Part shown: positions 18,603 through 43,408 of the stretch, piece by piece
Layout of the letters: each line of letters begins with the position of its first letter
Numbering within the stretch: the first letter of the stretch is position 1
Assembly: GCF_014174355.1 (NCBI RefSeq)
Contig: NZ_JABEQF010000003.1
Span: 1-64,000 of the forward strand
Reading direction: 5' to 3'
DNA length: 64,000 nt
Origin: Gluconacetobacter azotocaptans
Lineage (GTDB): Bacteria > Pseudomonadota > Alphaproteobacteria > Acetobacterales > Acetobacteraceae
Translations under genes and position numbers: made by a program
Notes under the pieces: generated by a model
What the model saw: only the letters and a program-made list of their open reading frames with translations
Databases searched by the model: none
What the model was told of the DNA's origin: nothing

Positions 18603-18773
18603 GATATTCTCGAAATAGAGACCAGACGGCGGGTTGCGCCGCGTGCAAATGCCTTGCCGCTTTAGCGGTGACGCTGGATCATTTCGAAAACTCCCGACAC
18701 ACTATCTTTGATAGCCGGCAGGGCCCGAGCGGGCAATGGTCTCAACCGTCAGCGTGCCTGAAACGCGCGATTT

Positions 18774-18916
18774 CGTAGACGCGATTTGCTGAGTGAGAGT
18801 GCCGCAAAGCGGCACGCCCGTCGTGTGTTTCCGGGCATCGGAGCGGAGCGGCCTTGATGGCCGTGGCACCGAAGCACAGAAAACGCGCGTCGGACCGCCG
18901 GCAAATCGCGTCTACG
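18774..18916 (-). repeat. Palindromic element, copy 1 (downstream of rbfA)
   Basis: A 143-bp foldback with 16-bp perfect terminal arms (18774-18789 and 18901-18916, CGTAGACGCGATTTGC and complement). Inside are hairpin GTGCCGC-AAA-GCGGCAC (18799-18815) and a longer imperfect hairpin centred on GGCC...GGCC near 18850. On the minus strand it begins 10 nt after the rbfA stop. The core matches the element at 39.5 kb at most positions in the same sense, while the arms differ in sequence but still pair. Confidence 0.85.
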
Positions 18917-18925
18917 GACGGATTT

Positions 18926-35745: not shown

Positions 35746-36000
35746 CGGGCGGGCCTGGGGGGGAAAGGCAGGGATGACGATGCTCCTCGGATCGTTCGCG
35801 GCGGAACCGGTCCGGCGGCGGAACGGGGTGTTCCCGCGTTCTTGTTACCGGGGCCAGCTTGTGTCGAAACCGGGTCCGGGTATGTTCTACCCCCGTTGGG
35901 AGATCAAGCCGGTTGTCCAGGTGGATCACACCGCCATCCGAATGCGGATGTCGTGCTTCAATTTGGATAATCCGTTGCTGACGCCTCGGAGGAAAAACCA
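35746..36000. promoter_or_regulatory. Divergent ccmA/acnA promoter region
   Basis: 255 bp without a gene. For acnA, TTGTGT (35859-35864) and TATGTT (35881-35886), 16 nt apart, are a plausible promoter; GATAAT at 35966-35971 is an alternative -10 without a good -35. A strong GGAGG ribosome site precedes the acnA ATG. Confidence 0.45.
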
Positions 36001-38694
<2,694 letters not shown>

Positions 38695-38724
38695 GCCGCT
38701 TTTTTCTCTGTCTGACGAGTACCG

Positions 38725-38758
38725 CGCCGGCCCGGATCATTCCGGGCCGGCGTTTTTT
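38725..38758 (+). terminator. Rho-independent terminator of acnA
   Basis: Perfect 12-bp stem CGCCGGCCCGGA (38725-38736) with 38741-38752, loop TCAT, then six T (38753-38758), 31 nt after the acnA stop. Confidence 0.95.
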
Positions 38759-38770
38759 GCCGACCCCGTC

Positions 38771-39514
38771 GTGCGCGCCGAGCAGGTGCGCAAGACCTTC
38801 GACGGGCACGAGGTACTGCGCGGCATTTCGCTGTCGGTGACGCGCGGGGAACTGGTGTCGATCATCGGGCCTTCGGGCTGCGGGAAATCGACCTTCCTGC
38901 GCTGCCTCAATTTCCTGGAAATCCCCGACGACGGCGCGGTCACGATCGCGGATGTCGCCATCATCCGTTCGGGCGGGCGCTGGACCCGCGCGGACGAGGA
39001 CGCGGCCCATCGCCTGCGCGCGCATGTCGGCATGGTGTTCCAGTCCTTCAACCTGTTTCCCCACCGCACCGTGCTGGACAATGTGATGCTGGCGCCCATG
39101 CGGGTGAAGCGCCTGCCCGCCGAGACGGCCCGGGCCGAGGCCCTGGCCCTGCTGGACAAGGTGGGCCTGTCGGCCATCGCCGCGCGCTATCCCGACACCC
39201 TGTCGGGCGGCCAGCAGCAGCGCGCCGCCATCGCCCGGGCGCTGGCGATGCGGCCGGACGTGATGCTGTACGACGAACCGACCTCGGCCCTCGATCCCGA
39301 ACTGGCCGAGGAAGTCCTGTCCGTCATGCGTGCCCTGGACGAGGACGGCATGACCCAGATCGTGGTGACGCACGACATGCGCTTCGCCCGCGCGGCGTCG
39401 GACCGCGTGGTGTTCATGGAAGGCGGCGAGATCGTGGAGATCGACGACCCCGACATTCTCTATGTGTCGCCGCAGGACATGCGGACCCGGCGCTTCCTGA
39501 GATCCGTCCTGTGA
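38771..39514 (+). CDS. Polar amino-acid ABC transporter, ATP-binding protein
   Basis: 247-residue ABC ATPase of the HisP/GlnQ type. Walker A GPSGCGKSTFLRCLNFLE, Q-loop MVFQSFNLFPH, signature DTLSGGQQQRAAIARALAM, Walker B VMLYDEPTSALDPEL and H-loop VVTHDM are present. The start is GTG 38771, only 12 nt after the acnA terminator T-run. The stop overlaps the GTG of the receptor/permease gene. The amino acid transported cannot be told. Confidence 0.92.
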   Translation: MRAEQVRKTFDGHEVLRGISLSVTRGELVSIIGPSGCGKSTFLRCLNFLEIPDDGAVTIADVAIIRSGGRWTRADEDAAHRLRAHVGMVFQSFNLFPHRTVLDNVMLAPMRVKRLPAETARAEALALLDKVGLSAIAARYPDTLSGGQQQRAAIARALAMRPDVMLYDEPTSALDPELAEEVLSVMRALDEDGMTQIVVTHDMRFARAASDRVVFMEGGEIVEIDDPDILYVSPQDMRTRRFLRSVL

Positions 39515-41190
39515 ATTTCGGCCTGAAGACGGGGCTTGCCGGCGATCCGACGCGCGTTTCCTGCGCTTCGGTGCTCACGGCCGGTAAGGCCGCTCCGCTC
39601 CGGTGCTCGGAAACGCACGACGGGCGTGCCGCTGCGCGGCACTCTCGCTCGGCAAGCCCCGTCTTCAGGCCGAAATTTATACTTTTCGCGTGCCTGATGG
39701 CCGTCCTGCTGGTGACAGGACTTGCGGGTACCGCCCTTGCGGCGCCGCTGCGCTGGGCGTCGGATGCCGAAGCGAACGTACCGTTCGTCTTCCACGATCC
39801 GGCCGATCAGTCGCGCCTCATCGGGTATGAATATGAAATTGCCCAGGCCATCGCCCGCCGCCTGGGCCGGCCGACCCAGTTCGTGCAGAACGACTGGGAC
39901 GGGCTGATCCCCGGCCTGCAACGCGGGCTGTACGACATGGTGATCGACGGGATCGAGATCACGCCGGAACACGAACAGGGCGTCGCGTTCAGCCATCCCT
40001 ATTACGTGACGTCGGAACGCATTACCGTCCGCCGCGACCAGCAGGGGCTCGACACCCTGGCGGCGCTGCACGGCCATGTCGTCGGCACGCTGAAGGACAC
40101 GACGGCCGAACGGATGCTGCAGGCCGATCCCAGCATCCACATCCGGTCGTACGAAGAAGAGACCAACGCCTATACCGACCTGAAGAACGGGCGGCTGGAT
40201 GCGGTGCTGCTGGACGGCACCATCTCGCTTTATTACGGCGCGCCGGATCCGGAGCTGAAGCTGGTGGGTGGGCCGATCGGGCGCATTTCCTACGGTATCG
40301 CCGTCGCCACCGGCAACACCGCCCTGCGCGACCAGGTGAACGGCGCGCTGGACGCGATGATGCGCGACGGCGAGCTGCACCGGATCCTGGCGCGGTGGAA
40401 ATTATGGACGCCGGAAATGGCGGAGCTGACCGGCGATCGCGGCACGCCCGACATCGCCCCTGACGCCTGGCGGCATTACATGGAGGCCACGGCGCCCCGT
40501 GCCGGCTGGCAGGCGCGGCTGGCGCGCTATGTCGGCTTCCTGCCGCTGTTGCTGCATGGGGCGGTCCTGACCCTGGTGGTGTCGGCCTGCGCGATGGTGG
40601 TGGCGGTGGCGCTGGGGCTGGCGCTGGCGCTGGCCCGGCGCTACGGGCCCCGCTGGCTGGCCATGCTCGCCACCCTGTATGTCGAAATCGTGCGCGGCAC
40701 GCCGCTGCTGATCCAGATCCTGTTCATCTTCTACGCCCTGCCGGGCATCGGCCTGCGCCTGTCGCCCTTCGTCGCCGGCGTGCTGGCGCTGGGCATGAAC
40801 TATGCGGCGTACGAGGCCGAGAATTACCGCGCCGGCCTGCAATCCGTCGCGCGCGGACAGATCGAGGCCGCGCTGGCCCTGAACATGACGCACATGCAGG
40901 CCCTGCGCTTCGTCGTGGTGCCGCAGGCGGTGCGGATGGTCATCCCGATCATGACCAACGATTTCATCTCGCTGCTCAAGGATTCGTCGCTGGTCAGCGT
41001 CATCACCCTGACCGAACTCAGCCAGACCTACGTCCGGCTGTCGTCGACCTATTACGATTATTTCGGCACCGGCCTGCTGATCGGCGCGGCGTACCTGCTG
41101 CTGGGCCTGCCCTTCGTGCGCCTGGCGCGCATGGCCGAGGCCCGGTTCGCGACCGGACAGCGCCGGCAGGGACGTACGGGACACCCCTGA
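39511..41190 (+). CDS. Amino-acid ABC transporter, substrate-binding protein fused to permease (with repeat insertion at N-terminus)
   Basis: 559 residues. After an unusual N-terminal extension comes a signal-like helix (about 56-75), a family-3 solute-binding domain (about 77-310; SDAEANVPFVFHD, GYEYEIAQAIARRLGR, GLYDMVIDGIEITPEH, GRLDAVLLDGTISLYY) and a permease domain (about 345-545) with several helices and the EAA loop YEAENYRAGLQSVARGQIEAA. Such receptor-permease fusions are known. Codons 3 to about 54 are a palindromic repeat element kept in frame. Without it GTG would be followed by AAATTTATACTTTTC, giving MKFILF and an ordinary signal peptide. ATG 39697 (codon 63) is an alternative start that avoids the insert but shortens the signal. 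Confidence 0.85.
   Translation: MNFGLKTGLAGDPTRVSCASVLTAGKAAPLRCSETHDGRAAARHSRSASPVFRPKFILFACLMAVLLVTGLAGTALAAPLRWASDAEANVPFVFHDPADQSRLIGYEYEIAQAIARRLGRPTQFVQNDWDGLIPGLQRGLYDMVIDGIEITPEHEQGVAFSHPYYVTSERITVRRDQQGLDTLAALHGHVVGTLKDTTAERMLQADPSIHIRSYEEETNAYTDLKNGRLDAVLLDGTISLYYGAPDPELKLVGGPIGRISYGIAVATGNTALRDQVNGALDAMMRDGELHRILARWKLWTPEMAELTGDRGTPDIAPDAWRHYMEATAPRAGWQARLARYVGFLPLLLHGAVLTLVVSACAMVVAVALGLALALARRYGPRWLAMLATLYVEIVRGTPLLIQILFIFYALPGIGLRLSPFVAGVLALGMNYAAYEAENYRAGLQSVARGQIEAALALNMTHMQALRFVVVPQAVRMVIPIMTNDFISLLKDSSLVSVITLTELSQTYVRLSSTYYDYFGTGLLIGAAYLLLGLPFVRLARMAEARFATGQRRQGRTGHP
39514..39677 (+). repeat. Palindromic element, copy 2 (in-frame inside the ABC transporter gene)
   Basis: Perfect 27-bp terminal inverted arms at 39514-39540 and 39651-39677 (AATTTCGGCCTGAAGACGGG... 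and complement) enclose a core closely matching copy 1 at 18774-18916 in its minus-strand sense, including GCGTGCCGC-TGC-GCGGCAC-type hairpin at 39625-39641. All codons through the element are open, and about 159 nt (53 codons) appear to have been added between the start codon and the signal peptide. Confidence 0.88.
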
Positions 41191-41242
41191 TCGCCTGACC
41201 TGACGGCATTTGGCCAATGCGTCTGGCACATGTCGGTGCTGT

Positions 41243-41264
41243 TTTATGCTACATTGTGCATAAA
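41243..41264 (+). promoter_or_regulatory. Candidate LysR-type operator upstream of the regulator gene
   Basis: Perfect 7-bp inverted repeat TTTATGC (41243-41249) and GCATAAA (41258-41264), 8 nt apart, 45 nt before the LysR start. LysR regulators commonly bind such interrupted dyads (T-N11-A type) at their own promoters; that use is inferred. Confidence 0.45.
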
Positions 41265-41308
41265 TGAACCGAAGTTTAGAACGGCGTTCAGCGAAATACT
41301 GAAAATCG

Positions 41309-42208
41309 GTGGCCATGGACCTGCTTTCTGCCCTTCACAGTTTCGTCCGCGTCGCGGCGACGGGCTCGTTTTCGGCGGTCTCCCGTGAAACCGGGGCCAG
41401 CCAGCCGACGATTTCGCGGCATATCGCGTTGCTCGAGGCCCATTACGGCGCGACCCTGTTCGCCCGGACCACCCGCAGCCTGATGATGACCGAGGACGGG
41501 CGCAGCCTGCTGCCTCATGCCTACGAAGTCCTGGAAATCCTGGAAACCGCCGAAACCGCGCTGGGCCGTCGGCGGGCCTCGGTCTCGGGCCTGGTGCGGC
41601 TGGGCGTGACCACGGCGTTCGGCCTGTACATGACGGGCCGGCTGGGCGAACTGCTGGACAAGCATCCGGACCTGTCGGTCGAACTCATCATGCGCGACGG
41701 CTTCGGCGATCTGGTCGAGGAAGGGCTGGACCTGGCGGTGCGCGTCGGCGAAATCGCCGAGGGGTCGCTGATCGCCCGCCGGCTGGGCACGGTCAAGCGC
41801 ATCGCAGTGGCGTCGGGCGATTACCTGGCGCGGCGCGGCACGCCGGAACATCCGCGCGACCTGCTGGCCCATCCCTGCATCGCCTATACTTATGGCGGCA
41901 CCCGCCACGATTGGCATTTCGAAGGCAATAACGAGGAAAGCGTGGTCGCCGCCAGCGGCCCCTTCCGCGCCAACAGCAGCGAGGCCGTGCTCAACGCCGT
42001 CGTCGCCGGCCTGGGCATCGGCCTGCTGCCCTCCTTCCAGGTGCGCGAGGAAATCGCGGCCGGCCATCTGGTGCATCTGTTCCCCGAATGGTCGGTCCCC
42101 GACCTGCCGTTCTATGCCGTGCATACCGGCCCGCGCACCCTGCCGTTGCGTACCCGCACCGTGCTGGATTTCCTGATCGATATCTCGGACGTCCTGCGCC
42201 AGGGGTAA
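41309..42208 (+). CDS. LysR-family transcriptional regulator
   Basis: 299 residues: winged helix-turn-helix (about 1-65, FVRVAATGSFSAVSRETGASQPTISRHIALLE and LFARTTRSLMMTEDGRSLL, read in parts) and an effector domain (about 90-295). Start is GTG 41309 or ATG 41315 two codons later. It belongs to the subgroup resembling aromatic/stress regulators with RTTRSLMMTEDG. It follows the ABC transporter on the same strand with 118 nt between, so the target is not evident. A partial hairpin repeat follows its stop. Confidence 0.88.
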   Translation: MAMDLLSALHSFVRVAATGSFSAVSRETGASQPTISRHIALLEAHYGATLFARTTRSLMMTEDGRSLLPHAYEVLEILETAETALGRRRASVSGLVRLGVTTAFGLYMTGRLGELLDKHPDLSVELIMRDGFGDLVEEGLDLAVRVGEIAEGSLIARRLGTVKRIAVASGDYLARRGTPEHPRDLLAHPCIAYTYGGTRHDWHFEGNNEESVVAASGPFRANSSEAVLNAVVAGLGIGLLPSFQVREEIAAGHLVHLFPEWSVPDLPFYAVHTGPRTLPLRTRTVLDFLIDISDVLRQG

Positions 42209-42214
42209 GGGAGG

Positions 42215-42243
42215 GTCGGGCTCCGCCCGAACCCGGCAAGGGC
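42215..42243 (-). repeat. Intergenic hairpin repeat, truncated copy e
   Basis: GTCGGGC-TCC-GCCCGAACCCGGCAAGGGC matches the first 30 bases of copy d and then stops, so the second and third hairpins are missing. It lies 7 nt after the LysR stop. Confidence 0.65.
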
Positions 42244-42352
42244 GTCCACTGGATAGGTGCTATCCGTTCGTGTTCTTCGACGCGATCCGGGACGAAGGGC
42301 ATGCTCGGCCTGAAAGGTTTCCCCGAGGCCATCACGCCGCCCCTCCGATTCA

Positions 42353-43408
42353 TCAGGCGGCCGCCAGCGCCGCCAGAAGCGCATCGACGTCCTCGATGCG
42401 CGTATAATAGCTGGTAACCAGCCGCACCACCGTACCGTTCAGCCCCAGCGGCGCGCGCCAGTCCCGGAATGCGAACCCCGCCGCCCGCAGGTGCGTGACC
42501 GCCGGGCCGGGCAGCAGCACGAAGATCTCGTTGGCCTGCGTTTCGTACAGCAGCCGCGCGCCCGGATGGCGGAACAGCCCGCCCGCCAGGCGCTGCGCCA
42601 TCGCGTTGGCCTGCCGCGCGTTGTGCAGCCACAGATCGTCGTGCAGATAGGCCAGCAACTGCGCGCTCAGGAACCGCTGCTTCGACCAGTCATGGCCCCC
42701 GCGCTTGCGGCGACGGGCGAAATGCTCGGCCCGCGCCGGATCGAAGAACACCACGGCCTCGGCCGCCATCGCGCCGTTCTTGGTGGCGCCCAGCGCCAGC
42801 ACGTCCACCCCGGCCTTCCATGTCGCCTCGGCCGGGGTGCAGCCCAGATGCGCGATGGCGTTGGCCAGCCGCGCGCCGTCCATATGCACCGCCATCCCCC
42901 GGCCGCGGGCCCGCGCGGCCAGATCGGCGATGGTGGCGGGGCGGTAGACCGTGCCCCATTCGCTGGCCTGCGTCAGGCTCAGGGTCGCGGGCAGGTTCTG
43001 CTGCGTGTCGTCCACCGGCAGGCGGTCCAGCGTGTAGGCCAGGGCCTCGGCCGTCATCCGCCCGTCCTCGGACGGGATGGGCACCAGGCGCGCGCCGCCG
43101 GTATAGAAATCCGGCGCGCCGCATTCCGACTGCATGATATGGGCGCTCTCGTCGCACAGGACGGCGCCGAAGGCCGGGGTCGTGGCCGCCAGCGCCAGTG
43201 CGTTCGCCGCGGTGCCGGTCGCGACGGGGAAGATCCGCACCCGGCGTTCGAACAGGTCCGACGCCGCGTCCTGCAGGCGCGCGGTCCACGCATCGGCGCC
43301 ATAGGCGGGGGCGGCGTCCGCGTTCGCCTCCATCAGTGCGGCCATGACGGCGGGGCAGGCGGGAACGACATTGTCGCTGCTGAAATTCTTGCGTATCTGC
43401 TCTTTCAC
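42353..43408 (-). CDS. ltaE: Low-specificity L-threonine aldolase family protein
   Basis: PLP enzyme of the beta-eliminating lyase family that splits threonine to glycine and acetaldehyde. 351 residues from GTG 43408, which has AGGGA at a suitable distance; family proteins start near KNFSSDN. Motifs: [60 protein letters not shown] and [18 protein letters not shown], where Lys of TKNG binds PLP. Glycine/one-carbon logic fits the divergent folD and MetF-like genes 37 nt away. Confidence 0.9.

Follow-up and report, generated by a model that had tools for sequence, protein, structure and literature searches.

The permease locus

The window analysed here is a stretch of 64,000 nucleotides from Gluconacetobacter azotocaptans (contig NZ_JABEQF010000003.1). 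It contains two consecutive ABC transporter genes, and a palindromic element lies where they meet. The features are as follows.

38771..39514, forward strand: ABC transporter ATPase open reading frame (ORF) with a GTG start, 247 aa; the ATPase is assigned by eye, and its TGA stop is the insertion target
39512..39514, forward strand: left 3-nt target copy, TGA; it is also the stop codon of the ATPase ORF, with which the GTG start of the permease gene overlaps
39515..39676, forward strand: palindromic, MITE-like element of 162 nt, which read in the permease frame gives ...AGDPTRVSCASVLTAGKAAPLRCSETHDGRAAARHSRSA...
39515..39541, forward strand: left inverted arm, 27 nt (28 nt counting the flanking base 39514)
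39650..39676, forward strand: right inverted arm, 27 nt (28 nt counting the flanking base 39677)
39677..39679, forward strand: position of the right target copy, now TTA and taken as an altered TGA
39511..41190, forward strand: permease gene, fused SBP_bac_3 and BPD_transp_1, 559 aa, with a 55-codon insertion behind codon 1
39680..39747, forward strand: remaining leader (ILFACLMAVLLVTGLAGTALAAP) with a hydrophobic core, a likely signal-peptidase site between ALA and AP (by eye) and a rival ATG at 39697
18765..18925, reverse strand: second copy of the element in the window, 161 nt, directly behind the TGA of a 318-codon ORF

The arms 39514-39541 and 39650-39677 comprise 28 nt, are 100% complementary and stand 108 nt apart, the outermost pair being flanking sequence. 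The ORF from GTG 39511 to 41190 has no stop across the element, and its product consists of an SBP_bac_3 domain joined to a BPD_transp_1 permease (Pfam). These observations agree with a preliminary description of the locus, which had noted a palindrome with perfect 27-nt arms at the N-terminus of the permease. The 318-codon ORF ahead of the second copy resembles RbfA by eye.

Empty and filled alleles

Orthologous permease loci were found at 41 places. Sixteen were inspected, and 11 of these have at least 87% protein identity (10 Gluconacetobacter species and Nguyenibacter). The genomes G002, G004, G009 and G013 named below are G. johannae, G. diazotrophicus, G. tumulisoli and Nguyenibacter, respectively; G013 is grouped with the genus here. 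The nearest named orthologue of the permease protein is that of G. johannae, at 98% identity.

Nine of the 11 closest named orthologues (eight Gluconacetobacter species and Nguyenibacter) have an element-free overlap of the stop and start codons, followed by a leader of 22-40 codons. In the other two the element is present and keeps the frame: G. johannae, where it is shortened, and G. tumulisoli. The distance from the start codon to the LRWAS motif is 42 nt shorter in G. johannae than in the window and 177 nt longer in G. tumulisoli, whose permease gene holds a second, tandem copy. Five more distant orthologous loci are likewise without the element (by eye). The in-frame insertion proposed in the preliminary description is thus seen as filled and empty alleles in related species, and the overlap with the ATPase stop that it had deduced for the shortened gene is present in the empty relatives. 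The filled alleles are probably descended from a single insertion in the common ancestor of the carriers.

The insert had previously been given as about 159 nt (53 codons), and its excision at that length leaves 26 codons ahead of LRWAS. Excision of 165 nt (39515-39679) leaves 24 codons instead. A leader of 24 codons is also found in five of the nine empty relatives (G. liquefaciens, G. dulcium, G. sacchari, G. aggeris, and G. tumulicola). The best-supported insert therefore has 165 nt or 55 codons, made up of 162 nt and a 3-nt target duplication. The flanks of the window copy are unequal, with TGA on the left and TTA on the right, so that the duplication is not intact; the copy presumably once duplicated TGA, and the right-hand triplet has since changed to TTA. 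The landing point was also described earlier as lying inside the gene, whereas it is the TGA stop of the upstream ATPase gene.

The element family and its target sites

The window copy has at least 37 BLAST matches in its own genome among the best 40 of 90 candidates, three of them being the copy itself or its own arms. A 132-nt query matches at least 20 of 60 genomes, comprising all 14 of the genus, five others of the family and one of the class; at most the 14 best candidates per genome were scored, and a miss is not proof of absence. The palindrome is therefore dispersed. Weaker matches to the element core occur in G014, G017, G019, G020, G032, and G045, one genome from each of five other genera in this family and one from elsewhere in the class.

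From 143 loci chosen for similarity to the window copy, 152 elements were defined. Many are at orthologous places and are therefore not independent events, and up to five are probably wrong or doubled calls (lengths 141, 218, and three times 170). Exactly 162 nt, a capacity of 54 codons, is the length of 98 copies, which are called canonical here. The element is short, multicopy, and bounded by terminal inverted repeats, and it contains no transposase gene. Together with target duplications, seen at other copies of the family (TGA/TTA at the window copy), and empty sites in relatives, seen for the window copy too, these are the features of a MITE.

Insertion follows a stop-codon rule. Of the 152 elements, 60 have the stop codon of an ORF of at least 100 codons directly at the left end and four have one at the right end; elsewhere within 40 nt no offset has a count above 15 on the left or above 10 on the right, and the left-side peaks at +8 and +14 fall inside the element. 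TGA stands at the left end in 59 elements, 19 of which also have TGA at the right, and the commonest left flank is CTGA (48/152). The flanking 3-mers are unequal in 83 of the 98 canonical copies. Among eight loci compared with empty loci of G. johannae, two (L002/L110 and L004/L125) have TGA-element-TGA against a single TGA in the empty allele; the other six in this comparison are L003, L007, L008, L009, L012, and L015. An IS605-like insertion without target duplication, considered on account of the mostly unmatched right ends, was set aside after these two exact TGA duplications.

The orientation of the element at stop codons is strongly biased. The GGCGATCC end is at the stop codon in 60 copies and the opposite end in four, despite the near-perfect inverted arms.

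A likely mover

G004 and G012 carry a 930-bp insertion sequence (IS) of the IS5 family (NF033580) with the ends GAGCCCGATCCGAAAG. At five of the 30 transposase loci examined, such ends are accompanied by 3-bp duplications of TGA, TTA or TAA. The five are not all independent, since three have a left flank in common. At L203, L228, and L229 the 930-bp copies have a common left flank and different right flanks, as if they lay beside another repeat. The IS1031 group favours a TNA target and makes a 3-bp repeat, and a member ends in GAACCTGTCTAG (PMC12016507, in the part of the text available). By the features of its ends and duplications the 930-bp IS probably belongs to this group; NCBIfam gives the IS5 family alone.

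The element family has IS1031-like ends and 3-bp TNA duplications as well. Compared with the IS end, the left arms of the 98 canonical elements agree at 8.6 of 16 positions, and shuffled arms at 4.3, with a maximum of 4.9. The palindromic element is thus best read as an IS1031-type MITE, to judge from these sequence features, and an IS1031-like transposase would move it in trans. It resembles the IS1031 group and IS-derived MITEs in its GAGCCYG-type ends and its 3-bp TNA duplication (PMC12016507, as far as its available text describes them, and the IS copies of G004 and G012). It differs in that it has no transposase gene, and in that its arms vary among copies yet remain complementary.

The genome of the window itself yielded no IS of this kind; the two PF01609 elements found there end in CTAG-type repeats. 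These two DUF4096/PF01609 transposases were rejected as partners, since both are located between CTAG-type inverted ends.

Survival of the reading frame

The reading frame survives the insertion because 162 plus 3 gives 165 nt. At least one forward frame is open in 97 of the 98 canonical elements, while one of the reverse frames is open in none. The frame that continues through the junction is open in 61 of 98, compared with 34% for one frame in base shuffles; an earlier, smaller sample gave 40 of 48, and the count from the larger one is used here. Openness of the junction frame is common, not universal. As the forward frames are poor in stops and the insert has 165 nt, a gene downstream of an RTGA insertion will often gain 55 codons.

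In-frame copies were sought among the 152 strictly defined elements and at the RTGA places. Of 19 exact RTGA places, 10 represent three read-through genes and eight have downstream frames of 3-75 codons; L230 was left out.

In-frame copies in other genes

The search for copies inside other ORFs yields at least four further genes with an in-frame copy, all for products that seem to be exported: a lipoprotein gene with an ABC_trans_aux domain, a cytochrome-c lipoprotein gene, and two genes for ABC binding proteins. With the permease gene, a palindromic repeat with an open frame is located in frame within five genes. In all four further genes the element precedes the hydrophobic part of the signal peptide (by eye).

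The ABC_trans_aux gene, presumably PqiC-like, lies behind an MlaD-domain gene. Eight of the 14 genomes have the full element there, in frame, and five (G000, G002, G004, G009, and G012) have an empty ATGA overlap; G013 is unreadable, and a second match in G011 was left aside. In G005 and G011 there is no ATG, GTG or TTG between codon 21, which is inside the element, and the lipoprotein cysteine, so that synthesis of the protein from a usual start would involve translating codons of the element.

The cytochrome-c gene has a lipoprotein-like leader and in G004 holds a shortened copy, in frame; the same matched stretch occurs in G012. L018, in the window's own genome, reads MMKKLLRLL-element-SGLAIVPILGTILAGPAARA, has an NMT1 domain and shows no clean duplication. 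L301, in G. johannae, reads MVHSTTL-element-RRWAGLSMLVLGAGPAHA, with SBP_bac_1 and an exact TGA duplication. In both, the element is in reverse orientation, an ATG behind a motif like a ribosome-binding site and an n-region precede it, and the hydrophobic core follows it.

Pfam matches above the cut-off are present in 12 of 49 stop-to-stop frames through copies, and all 12 are downstream of the element; a single Cementoin match falls below its cut-off. Five of the 12 (L004, L253, L254, L270, and L325) have their own ATG between the element and the domain and are chance frames. The remaining ones come from the window gene and its orthologue in G. tumulisoli, from the PqiC-like gene in three genomes, and from L018 and L301. 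Among the 152 elements there are 17 combinations of a start codon and an open frame, nine of which are the genes reported here. The other eight (L146, L152, L153, L274 twice, L284, L299, and L305) were judged by eye to be chance frames, and the frames of L146, L153, L274, and L299 gave no Pfam match.

Constraint on the palindrome and the peptide

In the outer helix of 10 copies, eight from the PqiC-like gene and two from the window gene, 18 of 31 pairs have changed on both sides. They covary with a score of 0.309, compared with 0.111 for shuffles (none of 500 as high) and 0.05-0.09 when slid. Over the 98 canonical copies, Watson-Crick pairs occupy 86% of the arm cells, compared with 54% when arms are dealt at random, as counted at 19 of 22 positions with the weaker-pairing positions 18-20 excluded. 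Conservation is about 0.68 in the arms and 0.90 in the core. Arms that diverge but remain complementary point to upkeep of a DNA palindrome, not to selection on the peptide.

The ratio pN/pS of the element peptide is 0.70, against 0.17 for the mature part of the protein. In the other two frames it is 0.86 and 1.22, and for 44 family copies elsewhere 0.98, all of these being descriptive ratios. The peptide encoded by the element appears to be constrained weakly at most.

The RNA of the element forms a very stable hairpin (39515-39676) that starts at the start codon of the permease gene. The fold of 39512-39680 has -122.6 kcal/mol, compared with -72.0 (sd 4.3) in shuffles, which gives a z of -11.7, with none of 200 shuffles as good. 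A hairpin of this kind would be expected if the element were kept as an RNA device, serving as a terminator, a stabiliser of the mRNA 3' end or a translational attenuator between co-transcribed genes. The excess of stop codons at the left end agrees with such a role, as orientation relative to the upstream gene matters. The base pairs do not fit it. G-U pairs are no commoner than A-C mismatches, the counterparts of G-U on the opposite strand (53 and 73 over the 98 copies, 12 and 27 in the 40 copies that abut stop codons, at the same 19 of 22 positions). This speaks for maintenance of a DNA palindrome and against that of a sense RNA. Nor was any terminator-like site called at the element. An RNA device is accordingly rather unlikely.

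A hairpin at the start codon could nevertheless lower translation of the permease, and it may reduce the ratio of permease to ATPase in the three carrier species. An Rfam scan of 36000-43000 of the window gave three weak matches, none of them at the element.

Comparison with known repeats

Rickettsia palindromic elements (RPEs) are palindromic repeats of about 150 bp with open frames that are inserted in frame into genes, and in R. conorii nearly half of them are in ORFs of unrelated genes (PMC10969869, excerpt). The preliminary description had likened the window copy to RPEs. By the description in that excerpt, the likeness holds for the way the element works, as a palindromic repeat with an open frame that lies in frame in genes (PMC10969869). 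It need not extend to an identity with RPEs: the present element has IS1031-type ends and 3-bp duplications of the TNA type, and in all the in-frame cases found it precedes a signal peptide's hydrophobic core.

The enterobacterial repeats RU-1, RU-2, and RU-3 are similar in being MITE-like and fused in frame to ORFs (PMC2759123, 2007, as its available portion states). RU repeats help to make a signal peptide, whereas the present element extends an existing one at the front (PMC2759123, same portion). In contrast to the RU repeats, the present element has empty sites in relatives and a TGA target rule, which applies also at stop/start overlaps.

REP units are linked to RAYT. The element could in principle be a repeat of the REP/BIME type that a RAYT (Y1 transposase) mobilises, CTGA standing in for the GTAG tag. 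GTAG-tagged REPs are palindromic and their ends supply stop codons to the flanking ORFs (PMC3733652, in the text available), and the copies described here adjoin stop codons in the same manner, with TGA far commoner at the left end than at the right. The two differ in size and in movement. REP units comprise 20-40 bp (PMC3733652, same text), while the present unit has 162 nt and 3-nt duplications, and the genome of the window gave no Y1_Tnp match. CGTC repeats are also stated to be missing in Acetobacteraceae, within the accessible part of that source (PMC3733652). A RAYT-moved repeat is thus very improbable.

No description of this family, or of in-frame palindromes in acetic acid bacteria, was found in the open-licence literature, as covered by titles and the beginnings of abstracts, with subscription papers mostly missing.

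Probable translation through the element

The explanation that is most probably correct is the insertion of an IS1031-type MITE at a stop codon, with the frame preserved. The MITE would have landed beside the ATPase TGA, which overlaps the permease GTG, probably by means of an IS1031-like transposase acting in trans. The 3-nt TGA duplication made there would give the 165-nt (55-codon) insert. Translation would still begin at GTG 39511, coupled to the ATPase stop, and would run through the element. The extra residues would give the signal peptide a long basic n-region until signal peptidase removes them, and the insertion may be tolerated because of this removal. From the position of the leader, the product of the added 55 codons is probably cut off during export.

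Several points tell against this explanation, namely the rival start at ATG 39697, the right target TTA and the unequal 3-mers beside most canonical copies, the negative search for a matching IS in the window's own genome, the junction frame that is not always open, the weak constraint on the peptide, and the stable hairpin, which could lower translation. The first belongs to a different account, in which the element splits the genes, the permease now starts at ATG 39697, and the frame through the element is open by coincidence. This ATG is in frame, through-frames are often open by chance in GC-rich DNA, and the five chance frames with a Pfam domain have their own ATG after the element. The leader starting at ATG 39697 (MAVLLVTGLAGTALA), on the other hand, lacks a basic n-region and has no ribosome-binding site by eye. 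The frame is open too in G. johannae and G. tumulisoli, where the distance to LRWAS is shorter and longer, respectively, and the parallel PqiC-like gene lacks a usual start codon after the element in two genomes. A new start behind the element is therefore unlikely.

With translation from GTG 39511 as the preferred reading, the locus provides comparative examples of a probably translated mobile element, for which closely related species have filled and empty alleles. It suggests a rule of tolerance, by which a foreign peptide is accepted where signal-peptide cleavage removes it. The mechanism offered is that a TNA target, a 3-nt duplication and a length of 162 nt together make stop codons safe landing sites at which the frame survives. 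A broader proposal is speculative and has a small chance of being correct. It holds that a 162 + 3 nt MITE with stop-poor forward frames, landing on TGA, repeatedly gives genes for exported proteins a foreign 55-residue prepeptide at stop/start overlaps, with signal peptides as the niche in which translated mobile DNA can be taken up by a genome, and that the prepeptide or the hairpin now regulates export or the ratio of the coupled proteins.

Tandem copies

Tandem arrays of the element are present at L149, L157, L159, L162, and L197, with a spacing of roughly 156-170 nt. In the G. tumulisoli permease gene (L032, upstream of 3001), the arms of the second tandem copy pair at 13 of 22 positions (by eye), and its frame is open.
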